Positions 39,410 to 62,014 of a DNA stretch of 64,000 nucleotides are shown one piece after another (the stretch's first letter is position 1; each line of letters begins with the position of its first letter). Under the pieces are notes generated by a model that was not told where the DNA came from, did not search any database, and saw only the letters and a program-made list of their open reading frames with translations. Made by a program: the position numbers and the translations under genes. Source of the DNA: an uncultured Bacteroidota bacterium. GTDB taxonomy: Bacteria; Bacteroidota; Bacteroidia; Chitinophagales; Chitinophagaceae. The DNA lies in assembly GCA_903824665.1 (NCBI GenBank), contig CAIJXT010000017.1, positions 1 through 64,000 on the forward strand, written 5' to 3'.

Positions 39410-39474
39410 TGATTAATATCATATCACCAACTGCCCACCATCATAAACGAGGCATTGCCACAGGTTTAAGTTTG
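39410..39474 (+). promoter_or_regulatory. FNR-like box and promoter of hmgA-hpd-paa
   Basis: The palindrome TGAT-TAAT-ATCA (39410-39421) has its centre 51.5 bp before a perfect -7 TAAGTTTG (39467-39474). No TTG lies at the normal -33 position. The spacing equals that at ccoS, ccoI and the distal box of the kinase operon. The predicted start site is about 14 bases before the hmgA ATG. Confidence 0.65.
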
Positions 39475-39492
39475 CCATGAAAACCGTAGCAT

Positions 39493-40650
39493 ATGCCATT
39501 TTATCATAGTCTGGGTATAATACCTGACAAACGCCATATAGTAAGCCGACAGCCTAACGGAGCACTATATCAGGAAGAACTTGTAGGCACCCAGGGATTT
39601 GGAGGACTGTCCTCTCTGGCATACCACCTACATGCACCAACATGTGTAAGGCAAAAGGGTAAACCATACTCGGTGATGCCCAAAATAGCGATAGAAAATG
39701 GCTTGAATGCGATGAGTTTTTCCGGGTACAATGTACAGCCGGAGAAAGACTATATAAAAAGCAGAAAAACACTGCTTGTAAACAGCGCAATGCATGTAGG
39801 AATCGCAGCACCACAGGAGTCTACCGAATACTTCTATAAAAACGCTGATGCTGATGAACTCATTTTTGTGCACGAGGGTAGCGGTGTACTGCTGACCATG
39901 TATGGCATTCTGAAATTCACCTATGGCGACTACATCGTGATTCCCAGAGGCACCGTATACCAAATCCAATTCAACACAACAGCCAACAAATTACTTTACG
40001 TAGAATCGTTTGATCCTATATTCACACCAAGACGGTATCGAAATGACTTTGGCCAGTTGTTGGAGCACTCCCCGTTCTGCGAGCGGGATATAAAACGTCC
40101 GGAACAGCTGCAAACGATTGATGAAAAAGGTGATTTTGATATCTACATCAAAAAAAAGGGCATGATGTTCCCATACGTTTACGCCAATCACCCGTTTGAT
40201 GTTGCTGGATGGGATGGATACCACTACCCTTATACGTTTTCGATTTTCAATTTTGAGCCGATCACAGGACGCATACATATGCCTCCACCGGTGCACCAGA
40301 CATTTGAAAGCAAGAACTTCGTCATATGCTCCTTTGTTCCCAGGCTATATGACTATCATCCGCTTGCAATCCCGGCACCCTACCACCATAGCAATATTGA
40401 TAGCGATGAGATACTATACTACGTGGATGGCGACTTCATGAGCAGAAACGACATCAAATCAGGTCAGTTCACCCTTCATCCCGGCGGCATTCCTCATGGT
40501 CCACATCCGGGAGCTATTGAGCGCAGCATAGGAAAAAAGGAAACAGGAGAACTGGCTGTGATGATCGATCCATTTCAACCAATGATGATCACCGAGGAAG
40601 CTATGAAACTGGAAATACCTGACTACTACAAATCATGGATAACTGAATAA
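39493..40650 (+). CDS. hmgA: Homogentisate 1,2-dioxygenase
   Basis: A 385-residue non-heme Fe(II) cupin that opens the homogentisate ring with O2 to give maleylacetoacetate (tyrosine/phenylalanine degradation). The C-terminal cupin has the iron site in HHSNIDSDEILYYVDGDF (His and Glu) and in HPGGIPHGPHPG. The length is slightly below the ~430 residues of animal and proteobacterial enzymes but is normal for Bacteroidota. It is first in an operon with hpd (11-bp gap) and then paaABCD. The fumarylacetoacetase gene is not in the window. Confidence 0.93.
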   Translation: MPFYHSLGIIPDKRHIVSRQPNGALYQEELVGTQGFGGLSSLAYHLHAPTCVRQKGKPYSVMPKIAIENGLNAMSFSGYNVQPEKDYIKSRKTLLVNSAMHVGIAAPQESTEYFYKNADADELIFVHEGSGVLLTMYGILKFTYGDYIVIPRGTVYQIQFNTTANKLLYVESFDPIFTPRRYRNDFGQLLEHSPFCERDIKRPEQLQTIDEKGDFDIYIKKKGMMFPYVYANHPFDVAGWDGYHYPYTFSIFNFEPITGRIHMPPPVHQTFESKNFVICSFVPRLYDYHPLAIPAPYHHSNIDSDEILYYVDGDFMSRNDIKSGQFTLHPGGIPHGPHPGAIERSIGKKETGELAVMIDPFQPMMITEEAMKLEIPDYYKSWITE

Positions 40651-40661
40651 AACAAATATTT

Positions 40662-41819
40662 ATGGAAACCAACAATCTTAAAGACGTTAAGAACTACAAC
40701 TACGGAATCGAAAAGATCTTTGAAAACGCACAGGACTTTCTGCCGATCAATGGGACTGACTACGTGGAACTTTATGTTGGCAATGCAAAACAAGCTGCGC
40801 ACTATTACAAGACAGCCTTTGGATTCCAGTCACTGGCCTATGCCGGAATGGAAACCGGTCTCAGAGACCGTGCGTCTTACGTAGTTGTGCAGGATAAGAT
40901 CAAGTTGGTACTAACAACACCACTGTCTGCAGACAGTGCAATTGCAGACCATTTGAGGAAGCACGGTGATGGTGTGAAAGTGATAGCCCTTTGGGTGGAT
41001 GATGCACGAAAAGCATTCGAAGTAACAACGTCCCGTGGTGCAGAGGTATACTTTGAACCGGTTGTAGAAAAAGACGATAATGGAGAAGTGGTAAGAGCCG
41101 GCATACGAACCTATGGCGACACCGTACACATTTTCGTAGAGCGTCGCAACTACAATGGTACATTCCTACCCGGATACGAACCCTGGGAATCTGAATATAA
41201 TCCGCAAAGTACTGGCTTAAAGTACATTGACCATATGGTAGGCAATGTAGAACTGGGCTCCATGAATAAATGGGCAGAGTACTATGCAAAAGTGATGGGA
41301 TTTGCCAATCTGGTCACATTTGATGACAAAGACATTTCCACACAGTACACCGCGCTTATGAGCAAAGTAATGACGAACGGAAATGGCCGCATTAAATTCC
41401 CGATAAATGAACCGGCGATTGGTTTGAAGAAATCTCAGGTAGAAGAATACCTTGACTTTTATGGCGGTGCAGGCTGCCAGCATATTGCAGTAGCTACCGA
41501 TGATATAGTCTTCACAATATCTGAAATGCGCAAGAGAGGAGTAGAATTCCTTTATGTGCCCGGAAAATACTATGACACAGTGCAGCAACGGGTGGGTGAA
41601 ATAGCCGAAGACATGGCAACACTGAAAAGCCTCGGCATCATGGTAGACAGAGATGAAGAGGGCTACTTACTGCAGATATTCACCAAACCGGTGGAAGACA
41701 GACCCACTTTGTTCTTTGAGATCATTCAACGGAAGGGCGCAAGGTCTTTCGGTAAGGGAAACTTTCAGGCGCTATTCGAATCGATTGAAGCAGAACAAGC
41801 ACGGAGAGGCACTCTTTAG
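40662..41819 (+). CDS. hpd: 4-Hydroxyphenylpyruvate dioxygenase
   Basis: A 385-residue Fe(II) enzyme that converts 4-hydroxyphenylpyruvate and O2 to homogentisate, the substrate of the preceding gene product. Two vicinal-oxygen-chelate domains are seen. The C-terminal one carries the 2-His-1-Glu iron site: H191 (YIDHMVGNV), H274 (GCQHIAVATDDI) and E353 (LFFEIIQRKG). The C-terminal lid GNFQALFESIE is present. The gene is 11 bp after hmgA and 43 bp before paaA. Confidence 0.96.
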   Translation: METNNLKDVKNYNYGIEKIFENAQDFLPINGTDYVELYVGNAKQAAHYYKTAFGFQSLAYAGMETGLRDRASYVVVQDKIKLVLTTPLSADSAIADHLRKHGDGVKVIALWVDDARKAFEVTTSRGAEVYFEPVVEKDDNGEVVRAGIRTYGDTVHIFVERRNYNGTFLPGYEPWESEYNPQSTGLKYIDHMVGNVELGSMNKWAEYYAKVMGFANLVTFDDKDISTQYTALMSKVMTNGNGRIKFPINEPAIGLKKSQVEEYLDFYGGAGCQHIAVATDDIVFTISEMRKRGVEFLYVPGKYYDTVQQRVGEIAEDMATLKSLGIMVDRDEEGYLLQIFTKPVEDRPTLFFEIIQRKGARSFGKGNFQALFESIEAEQARRGTL

Positions 41820-41862
41820 GCAAAAATATTCCTTCACATTCCGCTAAAAACAATAAAGGGTT

Positions 41863-42828
41863 ATGGAACTGTTAGAAAAAAACGAACAGGTGCAAACAGA
41901 ACTTCTGAGGCACTTCGAAAACAAAATAGAAAAAGGTGACTCGATAGAGCCGAGAGACAAAATGCCTGATGGCTACAGAAAACATCTTATAAGGCAGATG
42001 TCGCAACACGCACACTCTGAAGTAATTGGTATGCAGCCCGAGGGCAACTGGATTACCAGAGCTCCGAGTTTGCGGGCCAAACAAATACTGTTGGCAAAAA
42101 TACAGGATGAAGGTGGACACGGCTTATACCTGTATAGCGCAGCAGAAACACTGGGAATATCGCGGGACGAAATGATCAGCCAACTGCACTCAGGAAAAGC
42201 CAAGTACTCCAACATATTCAACTATCCCGCATTGACGTGGGCTGATATAGGCGCAATAGGCTGGCTGGTAGATGGTGCTGCTATTGTTAATCAGGTTTCA
42301 CTGCAACGCACGTCGTATGGCCCCTACAGCAGGGCTATGGTCCGCATCTGCAAGGAAGAAAGCTTCCACCAGCGGCAGGGTTATGAAATAATGGCAAAAA
42401 TGATGAGCGGTACTGATGCCCAGAAAGAAATGGCTCAGGATGCCATGAACAGATGGTGGTGGCCCTCTCTGATGATGTTTGGACCCCATGACAGCGAATC
42501 GCCACACACTGGTGATGCTGTAAAGTGGAAGATCAAAAGACACTCTAATGATGAGCTACGTGCAAAATTCATTGATAAAACCGTACAACAGGCGGAAGTA
42601 ATAGGACTGACCATACCAGATAAAGATCTGAAATGGAACGATGCCACCGGACACTATGACCATGGGGCCATAGACTGGAATGAGTTTTATAAAGTGATCA
42701 GTGGCTCTGGCCCATGTAACCACCAAAGAATGGAACACCATAAGCGTGTACATGCCGAAGGTGCCTGGGTAAGGGAAGCTGCAGAAGCCTATAGGGCAAA
42801 ACAGGAAAAACAATTACTTCATTCGTAA
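41863..42828 (+). CDS. paaA: 1,2-Phenylacetyl-CoA epoxidase, catalytic subunit A
   Basis: A 321-residue ferritin-like di-iron oxygenase subunit. With PaaB, C and D, and an electron donor, it epoxidises the ring of phenylacetyl-CoA using O2. Di-iron ligand motifs are visible: [24 protein letters not shown], and the [14 protein letters not shown] segment (E-x2-H type). It opens the paaABCD block; intergenic gaps of 12 and 14 bp follow, then an overlap. Confidence 0.97.
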
Positions 42829-42840
42829 ATATTTCTCATT

Positions 42841-43131
42841 ATGACAAAGGATTCTCAATTAGGTACATGGGAGGTTTTCATGCAGTCAAAACCAGGTGCC
42901 AACTACATTCATGCCGGCAGTGTGCATGCTTCAGACAAAGGTATGGCGCTGCAGAACGCCCGTGACACGTACACACGCAGAGGTGAAGGCACGAGCATTT
43001 GGGTGGTGCCTTCAGAAGCAATTACTGCTTCGAACCCGGACGACAACGATATGTTGTTTGATCCTGCCAATGACAAAGTATACAGGATGCCCACTTTTTA
43101 CGTAATGCCGGAAGGAGCCAAAGCCATCTAA
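42841..43131 (+). CDS. paaB: 1,2-Phenylacetyl-CoA epoxidase subunit B
   Basis: A 96-residue PaaB, a small structural or bridging subunit of the epoxidase with no metal site. The family pattern is clear: WEVFMQSKPGANYIHAGSVHA, then ARDTYTRRGEGTSIWVVPS. The length is typical. It is tightly packed between paaA and paaC. Confidence 0.96.
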   Translation: MTKDSQLGTWEVFMQSKPGANYIHAGSVHASDKGMALQNARDTYTRRGEGTSIWVVPSEAITASNPDDNDMLFDPANDKVYRMPTFYVMPEGAKAI

Positions 43132-43145
43132 TAAAACTAAAAGCT

Positions 43146-43904
43146 ATGACAAAGGAAGAAGCACTATATAAATACAGCCTGAAAATGGGCGACAACGCCT
43201 TGGTTCATTCATACCGTCTTTCTGAATGGTGCAGCAATGCGCCACTGCTTGAGGAAGATCTGGCACTGACAAACTTTGCGCTGGATATGATAGGCAGGGC
43301 ACAAGCGTTCCTTACCTATGCCGGACAGGTAGAAGGAAAAGACAGAACAGATGACGACCTCGCCTATCGCAGATCTGAAAGGCTGTTTACCAACAGTCTG
43401 ATCACAGAACTCCCCAATGGCGACTTTGCACATACAATAGCCAGACTACTATTTGTTTCGGTTTTTGAGCGTTACTTTTTTACAGCGTTGCAACACAGCA
43501 GCGATACTACCCTGGCAGCAATAGCAGCCAAGACGCTGAAAGAAGTGAAATACCATGCCACACATGCCACAGAGTGGACAATGAGGCTTGGTGACGGAAC
43601 CAGCGAAAGCAAAAAAAGAATGCAGGCGGCCATTAACAATCTCTGGATGTATACCGGCGAGCTGTTCGAAACGGATGAAGCAGATGCTATGCTACAAGGG
43701 CTGAACATAGGTGTAGACATGCCTCCTATCAAGGAGAACTGGCTGCAATATATAAAAGGTACTCTTGCCGCTGCAAACCTGACATTGCCCGAAGACACCT
43801 TCATGCAAACAGGTGGCCATAAAGGTATACACACTGAACATCTGGGACACATTCTTTCCGAAATGCAATATCTGCAACGCGCATATCCTGATGCAAAATG
43901 GTAA
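43146..43904 (+). CDS. paaC: 1,2-Phenylacetyl-CoA epoxidase subunit C
   Basis: A 252-residue ferritin-like partner of PaaA. It keeps the fold but is the structural, non-catalytic subunit in characterised systems. Family landmarks are present: YSLKMGDNALVHSYRLSEWC, NFALDMIGRAQAFL, KEVKYHATHATEWT, and the C-terminal HTEHLGHILSEMQYLQR. The stop codon overlaps the paaD start by seven bases, indicating coupled translation. Confidence 0.97.
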   Translation: MTKEEALYKYSLKMGDNALVHSYRLSEWCSNAPLLEEDLALTNFALDMIGRAQAFLTYAGQVEGKDRTDDDLAYRRSERLFTNSLITELPNGDFAHTIARLLFVSVFERYFFTALQHSSDTTLAAIAAKTLKEVKYHATHATEWTMRLGDGTSESKKRMQAAINNLWMYTGELFETDEADAMLQGLNIGVDMPPIKENWLQYIKGTLAAANLTLPEDTFMQTGGHKGIHTEHLGHILSEMQYLQRAYPDAKW

Positions 43905-44389
43905 AGCAAACACTCACAAAAGAGTATATCCTACAACTACTCTCTGTAATTCCTGACCCCGAAATCCCGGTGGTCAGCATCTATGAAATGGGAATGCTGC
44001 GCGACGCAATTGTGCAGGACAATGGGTGTGAAATTATACTTACGCCTACCTACACGGGATGTCCCGCCATGGGCATCATAGAACAGGATATCAAAATGAC
44101 GCTGCAAGCGCACGGTATCTCACCAGTTACGGTACGTCTGGTTTATAATCCGGCATGGACAACAGACTGGATGACAGACATAGCAAAAGAAAAGCTGCGA
44201 CGCTATGGAATAGCGCCACCGCTGCATTCTTCATGTACACTCGACACATTTGCACACAACATAGTCGCCTGCCCGCACTGCCTCTCTGAAGATACGGTTC
44301 TGGTAAGCAGGTTTGGGTCCACAGCATGCAAGGCATTGTACCAGTGCAATGACTGCAGAGAGCCATTCGAATATTTCAAATGCCATTAA
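43898..44389 (+). CDS. paaD: Phenylacetyl-CoA epoxidase maturation protein D (MIP18/DUF59 fold)
   Basis: A 163-residue protein with an N-terminal MIP18/DUF59 domain (IPDPEIPVVSIYEMGMLRD; metal-loop Cys in YTGCPAMG). A C-terminal zinc-ribbon-like tail carries four Cys (CPHC ... CNDC). PaaD is needed for epoxidase activity and is thought to help Fe-S or di-iron maturation. In proteobacteria the next gene is paaE; here it is an MBL/rhodanese gene instead. Confidence 0.95.
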   Translation: MVKQTLTKEYILQLLSVIPDPEIPVVSIYEMGMLRDAIVQDNGCEIILTPTYTGCPAMGIIEQDIKMTLQAHGISPVTVRLVYNPAWTTDWMTDIAKEKLRRYGIAPPLHSSCTLDTFAHNIVACPHCLSEDTVLVSRFGSTACKALYQCNDCREPFEYFKCH

Positions 44390-44400
44390 ACGTAAGTATT

Positions 44401-45792
44401 ATGTACATACAACAGATCTATACAAATTGTCTGGCGCAAGCTGCCTATTATATCGAATCAGGAAAAGAAGCCGCAATCATTGATCCGCTGCGGAATCCGG
44501 AACCCTACATTGCAATTGCAAAGGAAAGAGGCGCAACCATAAAATATGTGCTCGAAACACATTTTCATGCCGACTTTGTTTCCGGGCACATCGATCTCGC
44601 GAATAAAACCGGTGCTTCTATCGTATTTGGTCCGGGTGCTACGCCTGGTTATAGAGCTTACATAGCCGAAGACCACGAAACACTGCACCTTGGTGATGCA
44701 AAAATAGAAATACTACACACACCGGGACATACTGTGGAGTCTACCTGTTACCTTTTGCGTGATCAACACGGAAAGGAAAGCGCGGTATTTACCGGCGACA
44801 CACTTTTTGTAGGAGATGTTGGCAGGCCCGACTTACTGAGCGGAAATCTGAGCAAAGAAGAGTTGGCCAGCATGCTGTTTGACTCATTGCAAAACCAAAT
44901 CAAAACACTACCTGCGGATGTGGTGGTGTATCCCGGACACGGTGCGGGATCGGCATGCGGAAAAAATATCAGCTCAAAATCCACCTCGACAATTGGTGAC
45001 GAATGCATTACCAATTATGCCTTGCTGGCGAACGACAAACAAGCCTTCATTTCAGTTGTCACTTCCGAACTGCCGTACATACCCGGATACTTCTTCAAAG
45101 ACGCGGCTATCAACAAAAGCGGCTATGGATCGTATGACGACATTATCAGAAAAAATGTAAATGCGCTCTCCTGCCGTGAATTTGCAGCAGTTAAAAATAC
45201 CGGCGTTCAAATATTGGACACCAGAGATCCTATGACATTCTCCAGGGGATTCATACCAGGCGCACTAAATATCGGGCTGAGCGGAGATTTCGCTGTCTGG
45301 GTGGGTACACTGATTAGTGCGGATACACAATTGCTGTTGGTAACCGAACATGGAAAAGAGCTGGAAGCGGTAGAACGCCTTGCCAGAATAGGATTTGAAC
45401 AGGTAAAAGGATATCTGCAAGGTGGTATGGCGTCTTGGGTCGCTGCCAATCTGGAAACAGATACAATTCAAACGGTTTCAGCTGCGATGTGCGGTGACAT
45501 TATAGAAAGCGGAGAATATGAACTTCTGGATGTAAGAAACAGGCGCGAAGTGGCAAAACATCGCGTGCCTGGAGCGGTTCACATTCCGCTCAACAATCTC
45601 AAGGAGTTGTATAGTACCCTTGCCGCCGACAAAAAATGGCTGGTGTATTGCGCCGGAGGCTATAGGTCTATGATCGCCGCCTCATTTCTGAAAGCAAACG
45701 GATTCACAGATACAGGAAGCATTGAGGGCGGAATAAATGAGATCATCAAGCACAACCCTGAAATGGTAGAATTGGCACTGGAAACTGACTAA
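44401..45792 (+). CDS. Metallo-beta-lactamase fold protein with two rhodanese domains (persulfide dioxygenase-like)
   Basis: A 463-residue protein. The N-terminal MBL domain (1-~240) has the HFHADFVSGH metal motif (H54, H56, D58), GHT (H110), GDT (D133) and YPGHG, as in ETHE1/CstB persulfide dioxygenases. Two rhodanese domains follow. The second has the active-site Cys in YCAGGYRS (C417). The first has no Cys in its equivalent loop (LVTEHGKE) and should be inactive. By family it oxidises glutathione- or bacillithiol-persulfide with O2 and Fe(II). I start at the Met of MYIQQIY; the earlier Met lies inside paaD. Its location in a paa operon is unusual. Confidence 0.85.
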   Translation: MYIQQIYTNCLAQAAYYIESGKEAAIIDPLRNPEPYIAIAKERGATIKYVLETHFHADFVSGHIDLANKTGASIVFGPGATPGYRAYIAEDHETLHLGDAKIEILHTPGHTVESTCYLLRDQHGKESAVFTGDTLFVGDVGRPDLLSGNLSKEELASMLFDSLQNQIKTLPADVVVYPGHGAGSACGKNISSKSTSTIGDECITNYALLANDKQAFISVVTSELPYIPGYFFKDAAINKSGYGSYDDIIRKNVNALSCREFAAVKNTGVQILDTRDPMTFSRGFIPGALNIGLSGDFAVWVGTLISADTQLLLVTEHGKELEAVERLARIGFEQVKGYLQGGMASWVAANLETDTIQTVSAAMCGDIIESGEYELLDVRNRREVAKHRVPGAVHIPLNNLKELYSTLAADKKWLVYCAGGYRSMIAASFLKANGFTDTGSIEGGINEIIKHNPEMVELALETD

Positions 45793-45850
45793 GATCAGTT
45801 TTTAGGCAAACAAGCATCATAATTTGAACAAACCCTATCAAATATTTTTG
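45786..45850 (+). promoter_or_regulatory. FNR-like box and promoter of the ccoI operon
   Basis: The palindrome TGAC-TAAG-ATCA (45786-45797) overlaps the preceding stop codon. Its centre is 51.5 bp before a perfect -7 TATTTTTG (45843-45850). A TTTG exists 16 bp before the -7 element, shorter than the usual 18-21 bp. The predicted start site (~45855) excludes the upstream TTG start at 45824 and favours the ATG at 45869. Confidence 0.65.
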
Positions 45851-45868: not shown

Positions 45869-46423
45869 ATGCAAATAACGAGGGAAGATCAATACAATAA
45901 CATTGCATTACAGATTTTTGTAGATAAAATCAGCAAAGACTTTTACAACTCGATGGAAAGTCTTTGCAACAACGCCCGCCAGCAAATATATAAGTTAGGC
46001 AATCTTGAAATTCAGCGTACAACATCACAATACACTGCCATTTGCGACAAAATCATTACGGATGTAATGACATGCATCAAAGATTGGCGCGAGAATTACA
46101 CCCCTTACCTTCAGTCACTCTCAGAAAAAAGCGAATCGAACCACGATTGCAGCGCCTGCAGTGGAAACTGTAAGTTGAATCACGATCTGAAACTACTGGA
46201 ATTACGAACTGCCCACGCTGGCATTAGGAATATCCTCAACCGCCTTCAAATGGTATCTCTGCCGCTCTATTCAGAAACAATGTATCCGGACTCTTATCGG
46301 ATTTTGAGAAATCAGATGGCATTGATTGAAAATAATCTGACTGAACTTTTCTCGCTCGAGGAAAAATACATGCTCCCAAAGGTCATACAGGCACAAAAAC
46401 ACATCAATGCCGGCAGTTATTGA
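45869..46423 (+). CDS. Cys-motif helical protein of unknown function upstream of ccoI
   Basis: A 184-residue soluble, mainly helical protein. A central CSACSGNC motif (C-x2-C-x3-C) is followed by KLNHDLKLLELR; another Cys pair lies earlier (CNNAR and CDK/TCIK segments). No signal peptide or membrane helix is seen. I do not recognise a family. The gene overlaps the ccoI start by 17 bases and shares its FNR-like promoter, so a role in copper delivery or oxidase assembly is plausible but only inferred. A TTG 15 codons upstream is excluded by the promoter position. Confidence 0.72.
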   Translation: MQITREDQYNNIALQIFVDKISKDFYNSMESLCNNARQQIYKLGNLEIQRTTSQYTAICDKIITDVMTCIKDWRENYTPYLQSLSEKSESNHDCSACSGNCKLNHDLKLLELRTAHAGIRNILNRLQMVSLPLYSETMYPDSYRILRNQMALIENNLTELFSLEEKYMLPKVIQAQKHINAGSY

Positions 46424-49580: not shown

Positions 49581-49623
49581 CAAAGCTACCGCCTTGAACA
49601 ACCGTGATTGGTGACCATAATCA
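49581..49623 (-). promoter_or_regulatory. FNR-like box and promoter of the 127-aa protein gene
   Basis: The palindrome TGAC-CATA-ATCA (49612-49623) has its centre 29.5 bp from a perfect minus-strand -7 TAGCTTTG (49581-49588). No TTG lies at -33. The predicted start site is about 20 bases before the ATG. The same box serves the divergent gene. Confidence 0.65.
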
Positions 49624-51066: not shown

Positions 51067-51088
51067 CAAACACCAATTACTTACAGAA

Positions 51089-53257
<2,169 letters not shown>

Positions 53258-53267
53258 ATACAACAAC

Positions 53268-53435
53268 ATGAAATTCATAAATTATCTGGAGTCGATCACC
53301 GGCATAGGTATATATCCGCTGACCTCCCTGACCATGTTCTTCCTGTTTTTCGCACTGATCATAACCTGGTCAGTAAAGGCAGACAAGGGTTATATCAGAT
53401 CAATGAAGCAAATTCCATTTCCAGAAAACGACTAG
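53268..53435 (+). CDS. ccoQ: Small cbb3 oxidase subunit, CcoQ-like
   Basis: A 55-residue ORF between ccoNO (10-bp gap) and ccoP (27-bp gap). It starts MKFINYLESITGIGIYP, then has one transmembrane helix (LTMFFLFFALIITWSV) and a short basic tail ending FPEND. Position, size and topology match CcoQ/FixQ, the small stabilising subunit; sequence conservation of this family is low, so the call rests largely on context. Confidence 0.8.
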   Translation: MKFINYLESITGIGIYPLTSLTMFFLFFALIITWSVKADKGYIRSMKQIPFPEND

Positions 53436-53462
53436 TATTATTCATACCAAACAAGCGTTAAC

Positions 53463-54620
53463 ATGCAAGCCACAAAAAAATCATTCTTGCTTTCATTATC
53501 AGCTACTATAGCTATCCCGGTACTCAGTTTCGGAGCCGAAGCAAATCCGCTCACAAAAAGTCCGGAATACAACACGACACTCATTAGCCTCGTAAGCCTG
53601 ATAGTAGTATTACTATTCGTTATCGGCATACTTGCCGCTACGCTTAGCCAGTTAAGTGTAGTTGTCAGGGATAAGTTCAGAAAAGAGCGGTCGGAGGCAG
53701 CAAAAAAAATCGGGATGTTACTGCTGCTCGTCGGCCTGTGCCTCCCTGCTGCTGGTTCGTTCGCAGCAGAAACTGCTCCTGCTGCCGTTGTTGAGTACAT
53801 CGACGGAATTCCTACGGCAGACTTCTATCTCATCATGGGTATCATAGCACTCGAGCTTTTTGTGATTTTTGCTCTGGTCATCTTTACCAATATGCTGATG
53901 AAGGCTATGCGTGAGACCCCCGAAACAGAAGTTCAGGTCAAAAAAGTTGTGGAGAAAAGCTGGTTCTGGGACAAATTCAATGCAGCAGCCACTATTGAAA
54001 AAGAACAGGACATACTTCTGGACCACAATTATGATGGTATCATGGAACTGGACAACAGTCTTCCTCCATGGTGGAAATACGGATTCTACCTTACTATCGT
54101 TGTAGGTGTGATCTACTTCTACCGGTTCCATATATCTCACGATGGCCCCAGCCAGCAAGAGGAATTTGCAGCAGAAATGATTCAGGGCGAAGCAGACAAG
54201 GCAGCGTATCTGGCACAGTCTGCCAATAACGTAGATGAAAACAGTGTAACACTAATGACGGGTGCTGCAGAAATTGCCGCAGGCAGGGAACTGTTTCAGA
54301 AATCATGTGTGGCCTGCCACCTTGCAGATGGAGGCGGAAGCGTAGGTCCTAACCTTGTAGACGACTACTGGATCCATGGCGGCAGTATCAAAGATATCTT
54401 CAAGACCATCAAGTATGGCTGGCAGGATAAAGGCATGAAGAGCTGGAAAGATGATTTTTCGCCAAAAGAAATACAGGAGCTGACCAGTTTTATCAAGTCT
54501 ATCCGCGGTACAAAACCAGCAGCACCCAAAGCACCACAGGGCGACCTGTATGTTGAAGCAACACCCGTTGCTGCAGTTGCAGATAGTGTTGTAAATGACA
54601 CCACTGCGGTAAAAAAATAG
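53463..54620 (+). CDS. ccoP: cbb3 oxidase subunit III (CcoP), monoheme form
   Basis: A 385-residue membrane-anchored cytochrome c. It has an N-terminal signal/anchor, two further hydrophobic segments (about 35-60 and 120-145), an anchor helix near 200 (WWKYGFYLTIVVGVIYFYRF) and a periplasmic cytochrome domain. There is one heme site, CVACH (C282, C285, H286), and an axial Met in GMKSW. Classical CcoP is diheme; only one CxxCH is visible here. An Ala/Pro-rich tail ends the protein. It passes electrons to CcoO/CcoN. Confidence 0.93.
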   Translation: MQATKKSFLLSLSATIAIPVLSFGAEANPLTKSPEYNTTLISLVSLIVVLLFVIGILAATLSQLSVVVRDKFRKERSEAAKKIGMLLLLVGLCLPAAGSFAAETAPAAVVEYIDGIPTADFYLIMGIIALELFVIFALVIFTNMLMKAMRETPETEVQVKKVVEKSWFWDKFNAAATIEKEQDILLDHNYDGIMELDNSLPPWWKYGFYLTIVVGVIYFYRFHISHDGPSQQEEFAAEMIQGEADKAAYLAQSANNVDENSVTLMTGAAEIAAGRELFQKSCVACHLADGGGSVGPNLVDDYWIHGGSIKDIFKTIKYGWQDKGMKSWKDDFSPKEIQELTSFIKSIRGTKPAAPKAPQGDLYVEATPVAAVADSVVNDTTAVKK

Positions 54621-54641
54621 CACAATAATTACAACCACCAA

Positions 54642-56045
54642 ATGAGCAATATCGAAAACCCTGAATCGTTCAGAGACAAAGTAGCAACCGTAGATAAAAA
54701 AGGGAAACGCATATGGGTGTTTCCTCAGAGACCCGAAGGAAGACTGCACAATCTGCGGAAGTGGGTCACAGTGGTATATCTGATCGTCTTCTTCGGGCTG
54801 CCGTTTGTTCAGGTAGATGGCCATCCGGTGTTTCTCATCAATATTCTGGAGCGGAAGTTTATACTGTTCGGGCAGATATTCTGGCCCCAGGACTTCTTCA
54901 TATTTGCCCTGGGGATGGTGGTGTTCATTGTTTTCATTGCACTGTTTACCGTTGTCTTCGGCCGTGTGTTCTGCGGGTGGGCCTGCCCGCAGACAGTGTT
55001 TATGGAAATGTTGTTCAGGAAAATAGAATATGCCATTGATGGCAATGCTGCTGAACAAAAAATACTGGACAAAAGTGCCTGGAATACCAACAAGATCGTC
55101 AAGCGTGTTACAAAATGGACCGCCTTTTGGGCTTTAAGTTTCGTAATTGCAAATACATTTCTAGCCTACATCATCGGTGTGGAAGAGTTGGAGAAAATGG
55201 TCAGAGAACCTCTTTCTATGCACGTCGGCACGCTGACATCGCTCACCATTTTCACTACAGTCTTCTTCTTCATCTATCTCTGGATGCGCGAACAGGTCTG
55301 TACTGTCATTTGTCCTTATGGTCGTATGCAGGGCGTGTTGCTTGATAAAGATTCAGTGATTGTTGCATACGACTACCGCCGGGGTGAAGAACGCGGCAAG
55401 TTTCACAAAAACGAAAAACGTACCATCGGCGACTGTATCGATTGTGGTCAATGTGTAAAAGTGTGCCCGACGGGAATAGATATCCGGAATGGCACACAAT
55501 TGGAATGCACCAACTGCACAGCTTGCATTGATGCCTGCAATCACATGATGACCGCTGTAGGTCTGCCCAACGGACTGATAAGATACGCTTCTGAAAACAA
55601 CATTTCAAAGAAACGTCCGTGGCGGTTTACATGGAGAATGAAGGCATATAGCGTAGTAATGGTGTTGCTGCTGGGTGTGCTGACCTGGCTCCTTGCCAGC
55701 CGCACAGATGTGGGTGTAACATTGCTCAGAACCCCGGGACAGCTATACCAGGAGCAGCCCAATGGAGGCTTAAGTAACCTCTATAACTACAAGATGCTGA
55801 ACAAGACGTTTAAAGACAAGGAAATTGCCCTGAAACCAGAAAACTTCAAAGGCAGCATAACGCTTGTGGGCGAAACACACTTAAAAATACCCAGGGACGG
55901 AACCATATCCGGAACAATGTTTGTATTTGTGGACAAGTCGGACATAAAAGGCAGAAAGACACTGATTCAGATTGGGGTATACGAAGCCGGCAAAAAAATT
56001 GCCACCATCAAAACTTCATTTTTAGGTCCGTTTAACGGCAATTAA
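54642..56045 (+). CDS. ccoG: Polyferredoxin assembly protein CcoG (RdxA/FixG)
   Basis: A 467-residue membrane protein with about five helices and cytosolic 4Fe-4S motifs: CGWACPQ, CTVICPYGR, CIDCGQCVKVCP and CTNCTACIDACN. A C-terminal Ig-like periplasmic domain begins near residue 370. CcoG is linked to Cu(II) reduction during cbb3 assembly. It follows ccoP by 21 bp and precedes ccoH by 21 bp. Confidence 0.96.
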   Translation: MSNIENPESFRDKVATVDKKGKRIWVFPQRPEGRLHNLRKWVTVVYLIVFFGLPFVQVDGHPVFLINILERKFILFGQIFWPQDFFIFALGMVVFIVFIALFTVVFGRVFCGWACPQTVFMEMLFRKIEYAIDGNAAEQKILDKSAWNTNKIVKRVTKWTAFWALSFVIANTFLAYIIGVEELEKMVREPLSMHVGTLTSLTIFTTVFFFIYLWMREQVCTVICPYGRMQGVLLDKDSVIVAYDYRRGEERGKFHKNEKRTIGDCIDCGQCVKVCPTGIDIRNGTQLECTNCTACIDACNHMMTAVGLPNGLIRYASENNISKKRPWRFTWRMKAYSVVMVLLLGVLTWLLASRTDVGVTLLRTPGQLYQEQPNGGLSNLYNYKMLNKTFKDKEIALKPENFKGSITLVGETHLKIPRDGTISGTMFVFVDKSDIKGRKTLIQIGVYEAGKKIATIKTSFLGPFNGN

Positions 56046-56066
56046 AAAGCAAAAAAACTAACGCAT

Positions 56067-56504
56067 ATGAAAATAGGATGGGGATGGAAGATAACATTGT
56101 TGTACACTTCCTTTGTGGTAATGATGGTAACACTGGTTGTTGCAAGCAGCAGGCAAAAGTTTGATCTTGTATCTAAGGACTATTACAAGGAAGAACTGGC
56201 CTATCAGAATGTGATTGATGCCGGAAAAAATCTCGCCGGGCTTTCTACACCCGTGGCGATACATGCCAACGAAACTGACGTCACAATAGAATTCCCAAAA
56301 GAGTTCAACGAAAAAGCAATATCGGGTCATATCAAATTCTATTCTGCAGTTGACGCAGCATGGGATCGCACTTTCGACATCAATGCGGGCAACAATGTGG
56401 TAACCATACCTCGCAGCGCACTGCAAAAAACGAGATATACAATTAAGATCAGCTGTGTAGTTGACGAAAAAAACTACTACCGGGAATCAGAAATACAATT
56501 GTAA
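56067..56504 (+). CDS. ccoH: cbb3 oxidase assembly protein CcoH (FixH)
   Basis: A 145-residue protein with one N-terminal membrane helix (ITLLYTSFVVMMVTLVVA). The FixH signature DLVSKDYYKEELAYQ comes next, followed by a periplasmic beta-sandwich. It associates with cbb3 subunits during assembly. It is four bases from the next gene, so the two are probably translated together. Confidence 0.92.
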   Translation: MKIGWGWKITLLYTSFVVMMVTLVVASSRQKFDLVSKDYYKEELAYQNVIDAGKNLAGLSTPVAIHANETDVTIEFPKEFNEKAISGHIKFYSAVDAAWDRTFDINAGNNVVTIPRSALQKTRYTIKISCVVDEKNYYRESEIQL

Positions 56505-56507
56505 AAA

Positions 56508-57218
56508 ATGGGTATGTCTACAGCCTTAATGGCTTTGCTTATGGGTTTTACGGGCAGCCTGCATTGTGCGGGCATGTGTGGCCCTATAGTATGGATAATG
56601 CCATTTCAGATGTTCTCCGGTGCCAAAAAAGCCATGGCATTGGCGCTATATCATTTCGGACGTATTACAGTCTACGCCACGCTTGCCGCCGTGCTGCACT
56701 CCTTTCGCGAACTCTTTGATCCCAAAATGCAACAATATGTCTCTATTGCATTGGGCGTATTTCTACTGGTTGCTGGGCTTATATCATTTTTCCCTAATCA
56801 TGCACTAAGGATCAACCTGCCATGGGGTACTTTCGTAAAGCGCCAACTTGGTACAGTGATCGGGAAGCCCGGATTAGGCGCAATTACTCTGGCCGGCATG
56901 CTCAATGGCATGTTGCCATGCGGGCTGGTGTACATGGCCCTTTCGGCTTCGGTAGCGCTCCCTTCGGTTACTCAGGCGGTAGGCATGATCTATCTGTTCG
57001 GGATTGGTACGCTCCCTATGTTGGTTGGCCTGACATTGCTGAAAAACCGGATCAGGATTGCTCCCGGTTTGCAATTCAAGAGGCTTATTCCGCTGACCGT
57101 TTTCTTCTTCGGGTGTCTGTTTGTAATCAGAGGTATGAACCTTGGCATTCCATACCTCAGCCCCAAAGTTGCTGTTTCACAAGCCGGCGTGCAATCGTCC
57201 TGTTGTCATAAAAAATGA
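56508..57218 (+). CDS. SafE/TauE-DsbD-like membrane transporter of the cco operon
   Basis: A 236-residue six-helix membrane protein of the sulfite exporter TauE/SafE (DsbD_2-like) group commonly found after ccoGH. Conserved Cys motifs are GSLHCAGMCGP near the N-terminus and NGMLPCGLVYMAL in the middle; they form the paired-Cys core of DsbD-type proteins. The C-terminus ends SSCCHKK, a possible Cu(I) ligand pair. The role is probably copper or thiol transfer across the membrane for oxidase maturation; not proven for this subgroup. Confidence 0.85.
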   Translation: MGMSTALMALLMGFTGSLHCAGMCGPIVWIMPFQMFSGAKKAMALALYHFGRITVYATLAAVLHSFRELFDPKMQQYVSIALGVFLLVAGLISFFPNHALRINLPWGTFVKRQLGTVIGKPGLGAITLAGMLNGMLPCGLVYMALSASVALPSVTQAVGMIYLFGIGTLPMLVGLTLLKNRIRIAPGLQFKRLIPLTVFFFGCLFVIRGMNLGIPYLSPKVAVSQAGVQSSCCHKK

Positions 57219-57280
57219 TATTAATCAGCAAATAACATGACTAAAATCAGGTTTTCACAAACACATAACCAATACTTTTA
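57216..57280 (+). promoter_or_regulatory. Double FNR-like box promoter of the kinase-regulator operon
   Basis: There are two palindromes: TGAT-ATTA-ATCA (57216-57227) and TGAC-TAAA-ATCA (57238-57249). Their centres are 51.5 and 29.5 bp before a -7-like TACTTTTA (57273-57280, last base off consensus). The two spacings are exactly those used singly at the other promoters. This suggests autoregulation of the kinase-regulator pair. Confidence 0.7.
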
Positions 57281-57303: not shown

Positions 57304-59004
57304 ATGCAAAACATATGGGGTGAATCAGAAAAGGCTAAATTTGGCTTGCAATTCGCTATGCCATTTACAACCTTAAATAACGATACATTTCATGCATTGT
57401 TCAATTATGCCAGTATCGGCATATTGATCACCAACGCCAAAGGAGAGATCCAGATGGCGAACAAGTACATTGAAAGACAGTTTGGATATGAAAGTGGTGA
57501 GCTGATCGGCAAAGCTGTTGAAGTGCTAGTGCCCATGCGTTTTGCTGGCAGGCATGTGCACCACAGGGAAAAGTTTAGTCACGACCCGCACAGCAGACCT
57601 ATGGGGCTGGGCATGGAACTTGCCGGCCTCAAAAAAGACGGCTCTGAATTTCCGGTTGAAGTGAGTCTGGGCCATTACAAAATTGATGAAGACAGCTATG
57701 CACTGGCATTCATCAATGACATCACCCAAAGAAAAGAAACGGAACACGCAATCATTCAGCTGAATGCCCACCTGGAGCAGAAGGTAAAAGAAGGCTCTCA
57801 ATCGCTCGCTATTACAGTAGAGCAGCTGGGCAACCAGATTAAAGAAACAGAACGAAAAGATGCTGAACTGGAACGGGTTAATACGTTTCTCAACAACATA
57901 TGGAATCACGCCGGTGCCATTATTTTCATTTGTGACAATACCGGTATCATCCAGTTTTTCAATCCGGCAGCAGAAAAAGCACTTGGCTACAGTGCAGAGC
58001 ACGTCGTAGGATTGTTGTCGCTCGAAACTTTTCATTTGCAAAACGACCTTATCAAACGTGCCGACGAAATTACGGCTTTGACCGGCAATCCTGTAAAACC
58101 GGGTTTTGATATTTTCAGCGCACTCGCCGAACTCAACCTTGGTAACAATCAGGAGTGGAACTATGTACGCAAAGATGGCAGCACCTTCTTTGTGTCGCTG
58201 AATGTTACCCCCCTAAAAGACCAGCAAAACAATATCTCTAGTTACCTGGGCATAGCAATTGACATCTCTGAAAAGAAAAAAGCAGAATCAGAGCTCCTGG
58301 CAGCGCTGGACAAGGAAAGGGAGCTCAATGAGCTCAAATCGAGGTTCGTGTCTATGGCATCGCACGAATTCAGAACACCTTTGAGTGCGGTACTCTCGTC
58401 GGCTTACCTCCTTTCAAAATATGTCAAATCTGAAGACCAGCCACATCGAGAAAAGCACATACAACGTATCGTTTCATCTGTAACCTCGCTGACAGAGATA
58501 TTGAATGACTTCCTGTCAGTAGGCAAAATTGAAGAAGGCGAAATTCATCCACGTTATGCTTTTTACGATATCGAGGATCAGATGAATGAGGTAGTTCAGA
58601 GTGTTCAGCACCTTTTGAAAAAAGATCAGTCCATCAGTTACAAACACACAGGCACCAAAACAGTACGTCTGGATGCCACAATGATGAAGCACATCGTCAT
58701 CAATCTGCTTTCGAATGCCGTGAAGTTCTCCAACGAAAACTCGACCATTTCGCTGACTACTGATATATCAGGCAAGAAACTGCAACTGGCGGTACAAGAC
58801 CGTGGAATCGGTATTCCATCCGACGATATACAGAATTTGTTTAAACGCTTTTTCAGATCTTCAAATGTCACCAATATTCAGGGCACCGGTCTGGGCCTGC
58901 ACATTGTAGGCAAATATGTGGACCTGATGGATGGCACCATTACCTGCGAAAGCAATCTGGGTGAAGGAACAACATTTATACTTACTTTTATCAACAATAA
59001 TTAG
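57304..59004 (+). CDS. PAS-PAS sensor histidine kinase, FixL-like
   Basis: A 566-residue soluble kinase. PAS1 (about 25-145) contains RHVHHREKFSHDPHSRPMGL, similar to the FixL heme-PAS core; H96 (in DPH) is in the position of the FixL heme ligand in my hand alignment. A coiled coil and PAS2 (about 190-320) follow. HisKA has phospho-His H354 (ASHEFRTPLSA). HATPase has LLSNAVKFS, DRGIGIP and GTGLGLHIVG. No membrane helix. I use the ATG; a GTG four codons earlier is possible. It lies three bases before the receiver-CRP gene. Oxygen or redox sensing is inferred from context. Confidence 0.9.
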   Translation: MQNIWGESEKAKFGLQFAMPFTTLNNDTFHALFNYASIGILITNAKGEIQMANKYIERQFGYESGELIGKAVEVLVPMRFAGRHVHHREKFSHDPHSRPMGLGMELAGLKKDGSEFPVEVSLGHYKIDEDSYALAFINDITQRKETEHAIIQLNAHLEQKVKEGSQSLAITVEQLGNQIKETERKDAELERVNTFLNNIWNHAGAIIFICDNTGIIQFFNPAAEKALGYSAEHVVGLLSLETFHLQNDLIKRADEITALTGNPVKPGFDIFSALAELNLGNNQEWNYVRKDGSTFFVSLNVTPLKDQQNNISSYLGIAIDISEKKKAESELLAALDKERELNELKSRFVSMASHEFRTPLSAVLSSAYLLSKYVKSEDQPHREKHIQRIVSSVTSLTEILNDFLSVGKIEEGEIHPRYAFYDIEDQMNEVVQSVQHLLKKDQSISYKHTGTKTVRLDATMMKHIVINLLSNAVKFSNENSTISLTTDISGKKLQLAVQDRGIGIPSDDIQNLFKRFFRSSNVTNIQGTGLGLHIVGKYVDLMDGTITCESNLGEGTTFILTFINNN

Positions 59005-59007
59005 GAC

Positions 59008-60063
59008 ATGAAAACAATACTTATTATAGAAGACAATGAAGATATCCGCGAAAATGTAGCCGAGATACTTACTTTGTCAGACTATAAAGTACTGACTGCT
59101 GCAAATGGTAAAGAAGGAATCGATGCAGCCCAGAAAACGTCGCCGGACCTTATTATCTGCGACATTATGATGCCCGGTATAGACGGATATGGTGTACTAC
59201 ATGTGTTGCACAAAGACCCTTCCACTCAAAACATCCCATTTATATTTCTGACGTCAAAAAGTGAACGCAGTGATTTCAGGGCGGCAATGGAACTCGGCGC
59301 TGATGACTACATCACCAAACCATTTGCGGGCAATGAACTGCTGAATGCTATTGAGGGCCGGTTCAGGAAAGTGGAAATAATGAAAAAGACGCTCTCCCCC
59401 GACATGGCAGGTCTCAATGAGTTGAGACTTACCGTTAGTAAAAAAACACTGCAACAACTTGCAGAAGAAAGCAACACTAACACCTACAAGAAAAAACAAC
59501 TCATCTATAAAGAAGGCAACAACCCCCACTATCTTTATTTTATACTAAAAGGCAAGGTAAAGACCTTCAAAACTCACGATGATGGCAAAGACCTAGTTAT
59601 GGATTTGTACAACACCGGTGATTTCATGGGTTACATCGCATTGCTGGAAGGTGGATCCTACAAAGAAACCGCTGAAGCAATGGAAGAAACTGAACTTGCG
59701 CTGATACCACGTAAGGAGTTCGAAGATCTGATTGGCAGTAATCCGGATATTTCCAGAAAATTCATTTCACTCCTTGCCCGCAATCTGGTAGACAAGGAAA
59801 CACAATTGCTGGGAATTGCATACAATACGCTACGCAAAAAAGTTGCAGAAGCGTTGGTGAGCTTGCAAAAAAAATACCACACAAACAAAAACGAGCTTTA
59901 TCAGGTAGACATAAGCCGAGACGACCTGGCTACAATTGCCGGCACAGCATCCGAATCACTCATTCGTACTTTGAGCGACTTTAAAAGCGAAAACCTGATA
60001 GATATCAAAAGCGGCAAGGTGATCATTATTGACGAAAAAAAACTAGCAAACCTGATCCGGTAA
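59008..60063 (+). CDS. Response regulator: receiver fused to CRP/FNR-type DNA-binding protein
   Basis: A 351-residue regulator. The receiver domain (1-120) has D52 as phosphoacceptor (IICDIMMPG) and K104 (YITKPF). A cyclic-nucleotide-type beta-roll follows (about 150-255; GNNPHYLYFILKGKVK, TGDFMGYIALLEG), then a CRP-type helix-turn-helix (about 295-345; SRDDLATIAGTASESLIRTLSDF). The recognition helix keeps the Glu and Arg used by CRP/FNR to read TGA...TCA. Only one Cys is present, so there is no FNR Fe-S cluster; the signal must come by phosphorylation or ligand. Its tail overlaps the opposing gene by 21 bp. Confidence 0.93.
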   Translation: MKTILIIEDNEDIRENVAEILTLSDYKVLTAANGKEGIDAAQKTSPDLIICDIMMPGIDGYGVLHVLHKDPSTQNIPFIFLTSKSERSDFRAAMELGADDYITKPFAGNELLNAIEGRFRKVEIMKKTLSPDMAGLNELRLTVSKKTLQQLAEESNTNTYKKKQLIYKEGNNPHYLYFILKGKVKTFKTHDDGKDLVMDLYNTGDFMGYIALLEGGSYKETAEAMEETELALIPRKEFEDLIGSNPDISRKFISLLARNLVDKETQLLGIAYNTLRKKVAEALVSLQKKYHTNKNELYQVDISRDDLATIAGTASESLIRTLSDFKSENLIDIKSGKVIIIDEKKLANLIR

Positions 60064-61860
60064 CAGCACCGGCTCACTCTGTAAGATCATCTCGTTCAGT
60101 GTATTCTGAAAACTGTTTAGTTGCTCCTTCATGGATAGCACAAACAGATCTTTTTCTTTCTTCAGTTCGGGCAGAAGGGTTTTGTAATACTCTATGCCAG
60201 TAAGTAAATTGGCACGAAATGTCAACAAAAACTGCCTTTGCTTTTGGGTTTGCTGATCGGCATATTTTTCAGCTTGTTTTTTCAGATAGTCTACATACAG
60301 TTTCAGCTCGTTGACAAACATGTGTGGCCGGGGAACTTCATTCAGGACATTACACCTGCCATAAATATGACCTGCCATTTCCTGCAAGGTAAACGTACCT
60401 GAGAAAAAAGCCAGATTAGGCCCGGGGCAAATTGTTACAGCAGACAGGTTGTGTGAAATATGGATATCGTCTTTGATGAGCACCGCAGCAGACAACCCCT
60501 CACACAAACAATCCTTAACGGTCACATTTGCAATCGCGTTCTCCAACTCGTCGCCCACGAGCCCGCTTTCTCTCAACTGCCCGATCTTAAGATTCTGGTA
60601 TTGCCGCGATGCAGTACAAATTGGCGTTGTTGTAAATTCCGTATCTGTGGCAAGAAATTTCTTGTAGCAGGGACTACCTGGCCTGTTCCTGGCGATACGG
60701 TTGGCCCGCTGTACTTCCCCCGTACTCTTCCTGAAATTGTGAAACGGCACACCAAGCGGAGAAGCTTCACTCAGAAAATAGTCTTCGGGCACAGCGCATG
60801 CTAGTTGCTCCAGCGTTTGTGGATCAACATTTGTTACCCCGGGAACCAACAAAAAAGGACTACCCCATCCCGTACCATCCAACTGATAATAAGAACGAAG
60901 GAACTCATCTTCACCAGCCGTGCCAATTCCACCCTGCACGGTAATGCGTTGTATTGGCCGTGACAGGAATGAGTTACCACCCCGTGCTTCATTTGCAGCA
61001 TTGCATATTTGCCATAGCTCCTGTGTCAATTCCATTCGTTTGTCGCGGAATTCCTGAAGAATTGGCCCAAGCAGGTATCCATCGGTAGCAAACGCATGAC
61101 CACCACAATTGAGCCCCGATTCTATTCTGAACTCAGAAACCCATATACCTTTCTTAGCCAGTATTTTCCCCTGCACCAGCGCAGATCTGTAATCACTGAC
61201 CTTCAGTATTACACGCTTCTTCAACTCCCCGCTGGCGTCTGGGAAAAAATCACCGAAACGTTCGAAGTAATTATACAATCTGGGATTATACCCCGCCGAC
61301 ATAACAACGGAGGACGAGAGACTACTGTTGGCAAATCCCCGCAACGCAGACATCGCGTCAGCATATTCGGGAGGCAGCGGTGTCCCGTCCGGATGGTGTG
61401 GCAAAGCATCTACTTTAGCCATGATATTTACATCTATGGCACCGATGCGTATGGCCTTCTTTAGTTGTTCCTGTACAGCACCCTTCTGTTCGCCGGCCGG
61501 CATGCCCAACATAACCTCGTACAACTGTTTCTCCTTTGCACTATCCGGTAACATGTCAAAGTAGCATTTCAAATCATTCTCTTCATCAAATGGCAGCTTA
61601 CGCAGCGTCTCAGCCTGATACCCAACCAACCGGTCCAGAAGATCTAGGTATGCAGTTATCCGCTTTGCCCTGAAATCATCTTCCTTCGTTGTGATAGCTA
61701 TGTAGGGTTCCCCACTCTTCAAACAATGATATGCTCTCATTTTCTCAATGAGTTCATCTTCAATTATAGAAACTACTGAAGATATACCGTATCGGGCCAC
61801 CTTAAGCGGTGTATCGATTGAGTAGCTTAATCCCAGAACCGGAATATGAAAAGTATGCAT
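60043..61860 (-). CDS. Uncharacterised 605-residue Cys-rich protein of the microaerobic cluster
   Basis: A soluble protein without signal peptide or membrane helix. The middle looks like an alpha/beta barrel: VSEFRIESGLNCGGHAFAT, ITVQGGIGTAGEDEFL and GSPFLLVPGV. This is vaguely like nitronate-monooxygenase/FMN TIM barrels, but I do not claim that function. Cys occur in LNCGG, GSPCYKK, TPICTAS and KDCLCEG, possibly for a metal or Fe-S site. The C-terminal ~90 residues form a long coiled coil. The promoter has an FNR-like box, divergent from hemN. I do not recognise the family; function unknown. Confidence 0.85.
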   Translation of the reverse strand: MHTFHIPVLGLSYSIDTPLKVARYGISSVVSIIEDELIEKMRAYHCLKSGEPYIAITTKEDDFRAKRITAYLDLLDRLVGYQAETLRKLPFDEENDLKCYFDMLPDSAKEKQLYEVMLGMPAGEQKGAVQEQLKKAIRIGAIDVNIMAKVDALPHHPDGTPLPPEYADAMSALRGFANSSLSSSVVMSAGYNPRLYNYFERFGDFFPDASGELKKRVILKVSDYRSALVQGKILAKKGIWVSEFRIESGLNCGGHAFATDGYLLGPILQEFRDKRMELTQELWQICNAANEARGGNSFLSRPIQRITVQGGIGTAGEDEFLRSYYQLDGTGWGSPFLLVPGVTNVDPQTLEQLACAVPEDYFLSEASPLGVPFHNFRKSTGEVQRANRIARNRPGSPCYKKFLATDTEFTTTPICTASRQYQNLKIGQLRESGLVGDELENAIANVTVKDCLCEGLSAAVLIKDDIHISHNLSAVTICPGPNLAFFSGTFTLQEMAGHIYGRCNVLNEVPRPHMFVNELKLYVDYLKKQAEKYADQQTQKQRQFLLTFRANLLTGIEYYKTLLPELKKEKDLFVLSMKEQLNSFQNTLNEMILQSEPVLLPDQVC

Positions 61861-61897
61861 TTCGAGTATTGATTATTAGAATCGTTGTACAAAAGGA

Positions 61898-61940
61898 CAA
61901 AGGTCGGAGCAGATGGCCAGATAGATTATGATCCAGATCA
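61898..61940 (-). promoter_or_regulatory. FNR-like box and promoter of the 605-aa protein gene
   Basis: The palindrome TGAT-CCAG-ATCA (61929-61940) has its centre 29.5 bp from a minus-strand -7-like GACCTTTG (61898-61905; first base off consensus). No -33 TTG is present. The leader is about 33 bases. Confidence 0.6.
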
Positions 61941-61971
61941 TCATTCTCCCGTCCACACACAGACCGTTATA

Positions 61972-62014
61972 TGATGCTCGTCATAACAGCATGCTGAGCC
62001 AGCGCGTATTTTTG
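61972..62014 (+). promoter_or_regulatory. FNR-like box and promoter of hemN
   Basis: The palindrome TGAT-GCTC-GTCA (61972-61983) has its centre 29.5 bp before a perfect -7 TATTTTTG (62007-62014). No -33 TTG is present. The predicted start site lies about 12 bases before the GTG start of hemN. Confidence 0.68.

Follow-up and report, generated by a model that had tools for sequence, protein, structure and literature searches.

What regulates the CRP/FNR-type boxes that precede the cbb3 oxidase genes of an uncultured Chitinophagaceae bacterium, and do these boxes belong to one kind of promoter or to two? We address this question in a 64,000-nucleotide stretch, here called the window (assembly GCA_903824665.1, contig CAIJXT010000017.1, positions 1 to 64,000), in which TGAYN4RTCA palindromes stand upstream of TAnnTTTG-type -7 elements. 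The sequence points, fairly probably in our judgement, to a low-oxygen regulon with CRP/FNR-type boxes at -41.5, with or without another at -63.5, and with a locally encoded receiver-CRP fusion as the most likely activator in the window. The original prediction from this DNA named no regulator; the candidate is encoded inside the region that it described, at 59008-60063.

Phased boxes in the window and in related genomes

We identified 14 TGAYN4RTCA boxes in the window; 100 shuffles averaged 5.18 and all stayed below 14. All nine palindromes originally placed upstream of genes are present, at the predicted distances from TAnnTTTG-type elements. The promoter features are as follows, with genes named by their start coordinate.

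39410 to 39421, plus strand: distal box TGATTAATATCA (-63.5) of 39493
39432 to 39443, plus strand: degenerate proximal box TGCCCACCATCA (-41.5) of 39493, 22 bp downstream of the distal box
39467 to 39474, plus strand: -7 element TAAGTTTG of 39493
45786 to 45797, plus strand: distal box TGACTAAGATCA (-63.5) of 45869
45808 to 45819, plus strand: proximal half box AAACAAGCATCA (-41.5) of 45869
45843 to 45850, plus strand: -7 element TATTTTTG of 45869
49581 to 49588, minus strand: -7 element TAGCTTTG of 49555 (minus strand)
49612 to 49623, unstranded: shared box TGACCATAATCA, 29.5 bp from the -7 element of 49555 and 52.5 bp from that of 49708 (plus strand)
49634 to 49645, plus strand: degenerate proximal box TGATTGAAGTTA for 49708, 22 bp from the box at 49612
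49670 to 49677, plus strand: -7 element TATATTTG of 49708
50398 to 50409, plus strand: box TGACCATAGTCA (-41.5) of 50455
50433 to 50440, plus strand: -7 element TATTTTTG of 50455
50819 to 50830, plus strand: distal box TGACGAGCATCA (-63.5) of the ccoS-ccoNO genes
50841 to 50852, plus strand: degenerate proximal box TGAGCAACGTCA (-41.5) of the ccoS-ccoNO genes
50876 to 50883, plus strand: -7 element TAGTTTTG of ccoS
57216 to 57227, plus strand: distal box TGATATTAATCA of kinase gene 57304
57238 to 57249, plus strand: proximal box TGACTAAAATCA of kinase gene 57304, 22 bp downstream of the distal box
57273 to 57280, plus strand: -7-like element TACTTTTA (one mismatch) of kinase gene 57304
61898 to 61905, minus strand: -7-like element GACCTTTG (one mismatch) of 61860 (minus strand)
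61929 to 61940, minus strand: box of 61860, 29.5 bp from the one-mismatch -7 element
61972 to 61983, plus strand: box TGATGCTCGTCA (-41.5) of hemN
62007 to 62014, plus strand: -7 element TATTTTTG of hemN

From box centre to the first base of an exact TAnnTTTG, the distance is 51.5 bp for boxes 39410, 45786 and 50819, and 29.5 bp for boxes 50398, 61972 and, on the minus strand, 49612; on the plus strand this last box lies 52.5 bp from an exact element. Every predicted spacing was reproduced, three of them (both boxes of 57304 and the box of 61860) on -7 elements that carry one mismatch: TACTTTTA at 57273, shared by the two 57304 boxes, and GACCTTTG at 61905 on the minus strand. The remaining five window boxes (721, 8873, 17741, 46068 and 59996) have no phased -7 element, even when one mismatch is allowed.

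The normal -33 element, predicted to be absent or badly spaced, was not found: no TTG begins 22-24 bp upstream of the nine -7 elements, the usual spacing of the -33 TTG. The assignment of the first base of TAnnTTTG to -12 also agrees with mapped start sites of Flavobacterium psychrophilum, for which the available text of PMC9723704 places the element at -12 to -5. By this analogy, a box lying 29.5 bp from the first base of TAnnTTTG is centred at -41.5, the class II position.

The whole 4.73 Mb genome was searched with CAAANNTAN{20,50}TGAYN4RTCA, in which a gap of 23 corresponds to 29.5 bp (-41.5) and a gap of 45 to 51.5 bp (-63.5). Each -7 element is listed with one gap, and a perfect double box on contig C22 therefore appears only at gap 23. 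The 40 listed matches, over the 31 gaps allowed, comprise 17 at gap 23, five at gap 22, one at gap 24 and four at gap 45, with the other 13 scattered over the other 27 gaps; the reversed pattern gave seven. Setting aside the window sites already predicted leaves 14 new sites at gap 23 and one at gap 45. Open reading frames (ORFs) of at least 120 amino acids exclude 14 of the 17 gap-23 boxes. The genome-wide scan that the original prediction proposed thus clearly bears it out at -41.5, as does the proposed scan of relatives, in which 60 genomes of the order hold 270 phased matches (gaps 22-24) against 63 control matches (gaps 33-35), with kinship among the genomes uncorrected.

Two of the five gap-22 matches are copies of one element. 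These sites (G000:C8:89876-89917 and C10:174994-175035) comprise a near-identical gap-22 promoter and small-protein gene, at equal distance from two contig ends, and are probably one repeat or transposed element.

One tandem architecture

Two promoter classes had been proposed for these boxes, class II at -41.5 and class I at -63.5. The first holds genome-wide and order-wide. The second does not stand as an independent class, because most promoters with a box at -63.5 also hold a box or half box 22 bp away, at -41.5. Ahead of 39493, 45869 and 50905, the perfect box is followed, at a distance of exactly 22 bp, by TGCCCACCATCA, AAACAAGCATCA and TGAGCAACGTCA, respectively; at 49708, both distances are one base longer and TGATTGAAGTTA again follows the perfect box by 22 bp.

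We examined 19 gap-45 promoters among the matches listed (four from the own genome and 15 from the same genus). TGAY stands at exactly gap 23 in 16 of them, compared with at most one at any of 21 other offsets; these 16 promoters do not show the class I arrangement of an upstream site with none at -41.5. Of the three exceptions, one carries the other half site; the remaining two, C15:18571 of the own genome and a row from the genus, score 1 and 3 of 8 at -41.5 and show nothing there that resembles a box. Around the fusion gene, in 33 loci, all 17 gap-45 matches (nine loci) score 6-8 of 8 at -41.5. The promoters are better described by a single arrangement, in which the proximal box can be weak and another box may lie 22 bp upstream of it.

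A tandem pattern that fixes only the -7 element, one proximal half site and the distal box gave 39 matches in 20 of the 60 order genomes and is present in 113 of 295 genomes of the class; its reversed control gave 0 in both sets. The far half of the proximal box, which this pattern leaves unspecified, has T in 32, C in 29 and A in 37 of the 39 matches, and the base preceding TGAY is A in 29. No spacer position is strongly conserved among the 39.

A receiver-CRP fusion beside a FixL-like kinase

Two adjacent genes behind the double box at 57216-57249 encode a candidate sensor and a candidate activator.

57304 to 59004, plus strand: histidine kinase with PAS, PAS, HisKA and HATPase_c domains, the first PAS resembling the FixL haem domain
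59008 to 60063, plus strand: receiver-cNMP_binding-HTH_Crp_2 fusion, the candidate regulator

The fusion belongs to the CRP/FNR superfamily by its Pfam matches (cNMP_binding, 77.0 bits against a cut-off of 27.5; HTH_Crp_2, 50.1 against 27), and its receiver scores 106.3 bits against 30.2. Across 20 aligned fusions, the receiver residues D9, D52 and K104 and the recognition-helix residues E316 and R320, the latter two with a predicted contact role, are invariant. The fusion falls below the NCBIfam equivalog cut-offs for CRP (95.7 against 266 bits) and FixK (NF050806; 77.5 against 300 bits). FixJ consists of a receiver followed by a LuxR-type output; the fusion has the receiver, but its output is HTH_Crp_2, and it is therefore not a FixJ. 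Nor is it an FNR, since the CRP halves of the 20 fusions have no conserved cysteine.

The first PAS domain of the kinase has FixL haem-domain structures as its best matches (1.6e-13). A kinase ORF adjoins the fusion gene upstream in 27 of the 33 fusion loci, and the FixL histidine, the haem ligand, is kept in 27 of 27. Six loci failed the adjacency filter; two of these (L115 and L199) nevertheless have a kinase match directly upstream. The kinase scores below the NCBIfam equivalog cut-off for rhizobial FixL (116 against 850 bits). At the position of the FG-loop arginine of FixL, its 27 relatives have R in 16, M in four, L in four, I in two and K in one. The kinase probably senses oxygen through a FixL-like haem domain.

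Carriers of the fusion occur across the phylum Bacteroidota; those named include at least Chitinophaga, Mucilaginibacter, Arcticibacter, Sphingobacterium, Flavobacterium, Salinimicrobium, Jiulongibacter and Crocinitomix. Together with the promoter type and Por sorting domains, these relatives point to Bacteroidota as the phylum of the window itself. This list is a minimum, drawn from 13 full-length fusions among 80 loci listed in named genomes. Among open-licence PMC texts, judged by title and start of abstract, we recognised none that describes in Bacteroidota either a FixL system or a fusion of receiver and CRP domains, a scope that mostly leaves out subscription papers. Receiver-CRP proteins may appear in response-regulator censuses.

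Two candidate regulators and the same boxes

The own genome also encodes a stand-alone FNR-like protein (C8:23402-24115) that starts with CxxCxxC and, by the comparisons below, probably reads the same boxes. We sorted the 60 order genomes by the presence of a full-length fusion (25 genomes) and of an FNR-like match at about 1e-38 or better (28 genomes), counting one genome whose fusion is interrupted by a stop (G036) as lacking it. The ratio of phased to control matches is 64:8 in the six genomes with both regulators, 127:27 in the 22 with the FNR-like protein only, 68:21 in the 19 with the fusion only and 11:7 in the 13 with neither. Phased boxes occur with the fusion, the FNR-like protein or both, and the excess is absent with neither. 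The two proteins co-occur less than expected (Fisher p 0.004, or 0.002 once nine genomes less than 90% complete are dropped, kinship uncorrected in both). In a tree of the CRP halves (52 rows), fusions and FNR-like proteins are intermixed on weak branches; a single origin is neither shown nor excluded.

The fusion alone is rejected as the source of the order-wide signal, because genomes with only the FNR-like protein show the phasing too. Tandem boxes are likewise not supported as a mark of the fusion: they occur in 8 of 19 fusion-only genomes and five of six with both regulators, and also in 7 of 22 FNR-like-only genomes, with 0 of 13 among genomes with neither.

Several observations weigh against assigning the window's boxes to an oxygen-responsive fusion. 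First, the FixL-best match of the PAS domain stands without a control set of non-haem PAS domains, and the FG-loop arginine position of FixL is Met in the window's kinase. Second, the 1e-38 cut was chosen after the list was seen (it falls in a gap of the list), and kinship is uncorrected in both the regulator and the phasing counts. Third, six of the 19 fusion-only genomes (G008, G013, G023, G027, G028 and G057) have 0 or 1 phased matches, and two others so classed (G047 and G045) have stand-alone matches at E of about 1e-31, with weaker ones in others. Fourth, own-genome sites outside the window precede genes for a beta-eliminating lyase, a 3-hydroxyacyl-CoA dehydrogenase, MlaE and MbnP, whose link to oxygen is not clear, and some phased sites there precede no convincing gene. 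Finally, the genome holds both regulators and eight HTH_Crp_2 matches, seven of them above the cut-off, so the assignment to the window's boxes is not settled.

It is possible, if on balance doubtful, that the cysteine-rich FNR-like protein alone controls the boxes and that the fusion acts elsewhere. Such a reading accounts for the phasing and tandem boxes of FNR-like-only genomes. A CxxC motif is present in 26 of the 28 FNR-like proteins, and the two without it (L087 from G059 and L092 from G046) come from genomes lacking a phased excess (2:4 and 2:5). Against it, fusion-only genomes are phased as well, and two of them (G030 and G043) have each kept three perfect double boxes within their cbb3-kinase-fusion cluster; in G030, the sole match to the FNR-like query is its own fusion. 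That another CRP-family protein of the genome reads the boxes, as its eight HTH_Crp_2 matches would permit, is improbable given the missing excess in the 13 genomes with neither regulator, in which the survey covered the two named regulators. A shade less probable still are two separate architectures: perfect boxes do occur at both distances, and two of the 19 gap-45 promoters have nothing box-like at -41.5, but the 16 with TGAY at gap 23 and the uniformly high -41.5 scores at fusion loci favour the tandem form. Chance or base composition, which the shortness of the box might suggest, is rejected by the single-base phasing and the shifted-gap and reversed-pattern controls, and the claim that the arrangement is far beyond chance stands.

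Two closely similar CRP-family proteins of about 210 amino acids are also encoded in the genome, at C8:26501-27049 (near the FNR-like gene) and C2:7255-7785.

Proposed pathway and relation to known systems

Read directly from the sequence are the boxes with their spacing and their tandem form, the domains, the conserved residues, the neighbouring genes and the co-occurrence with the two regulators; from these we infer oxygen sensing, phosphotransfer, binding, activation and cooperativity. The FixL-like kinase 57304 would sense falling oxygen, becoming active once oxygen leaves the haem, and would phosphorylate the receiver of the fusion. The CRP half could then bind the -41.5 box, including the boxes ahead of its own operon, often assisted by another dimer at -63.5, 22 bp further upstream. 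Binding of this activator may make up for the missing -33 contact, and the cbb3 oxidase, the CcoI-like ATPase, hemN and other genes would be switched on from TAnnTTTG promoters without a -33 element.

Rhizobia induce FixK through a separate protein, FixJ or FxkR. The candidate system shares with the rhizobial FixL-FixJ-FixK cascade (a subject of PMC9104804 and PMC7888657, for example) a FixL-like haem-PAS kinase, a receiver, a CRP/FNR-type output and cbb3 oxidase genes as apparent targets. It differs in that receiver and CRP output form one protein and in that the promoter core is TAnnTTTG. In effect, the cascade appears shortened, with a FixJ-type receiver and a FixK-type output in one protein.

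Escherichia coli FNR and FNR-type activators share with the fusion system the TGAY/RTCA half site, the class II position, anaerobic or microaerobic genes and the recognition-helix Glu and Arg. Unlike FNR, the fusion has no conserved cysteines in its CRP half. The base before TGAY, mostly A here, is T in the FNR consensus half site, TTGAT. MalR-type CRP homologues share the family and the phylum and are tied to carbon sources in the available text of PMC8510549, in whose main text the word "receiver" does not appear.

A broader proposal, which we consider evenly balanced, is that Bacteroidia share one operator design for oxygen control of respiration, a CRP-type box at -41.5 that often has a second copy 22 bp upstream. 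Two proteins that tend to substitute for one another could read it: one is FNR-like and cysteine-rich, the other a receiver-CRP fusion under FixL control, in which phosphorylation would stand in for the iron-sulphur cluster. If right, a large environmental phylum gains a defined oxygen operator and a two-gene sensor-activator pair. The system would also illustrate the reduction of a three-step cascade of the rhizobial type to two proteins, and would offer a natural experiment in which the same boxes are seemingly read by two regulators of different oxygen chemistry.

Genes behind the boxes

The window genes that follow the boxes include the following.

39493 to 40650, plus strand: homogentisate-dioxygenase-like gene (Pfam HgmA_N above cut-off; NCBIfam hmgA far below cut-off)
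45869 to 46423, plus strand: 185-amino-acid-frame protein P0004, family not recognised, the first gene before the CcoI-like ATPase
46407 to 48860, plus strand: P-type ATPase carrying ATPase-cat_bd and HMA domains, named CcoI/FixI-like by inference
50905 to 57218, plus strand: cbb3 oxidase cluster with FixS, COX1 and FixO in one ORF, FixP, CcoG (FixG_C), FixH and DsbD_2
60043 to 61860, minus strand: 605-amino-acid protein
62031 to 63398, plus strand: hemN, oxygen-independent coproporphyrinogen III oxidase, above the NCBIfam cut-off

We also selected 28 tandem loci of other genomes by DNA pattern alone, predicted the downstream ORF and scanned 19 proteins. These include COX1 in five cases, a CcoI-type metal-binding domain in three and a CcoG-like ferredoxin in one; nine of the 19 resemble cbb3 oxidase or proteins of its assembly. 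Cytochrome oxidase subunit II, PaaC, a universal stress protein, a pyridine-nucleotide oxidoreductase and a YgaP-like membrane protein were found once each, two proteins match only below a cut-off and three match nothing. Among eight proteins scanned behind own-genome sites outside the window, a ThiF protein was also found, and two have no family.

For the 605-amino-acid protein, neither Pfam (E 0.1) nor NCBIfam (E 0.001) yields a family, and the PDB (E 0.1) yields no relative. Immediately behind the fusion gene of two loci (L192 8178-8200 and L193 5871-5893) stands a perfect double box, ahead of a protein of 123-130 amino acids; the small protein of G043 behind that double box has no Pfam family.

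COX1 (CcoN) and FixO (CcoO) are joined in one 722-amino-acid ORF at 51089-53257. Homogentisate- and hydroxyphenylpyruvate-dioxygenase-like genes stand beside cbb3 genes both in the window (39493-45792) and in G015 (L200 1268-3700), and in the window paa genes follow the homogentisate-dioxygenase-like gene. The profile scan also found Por sorting domains among the window proteins.

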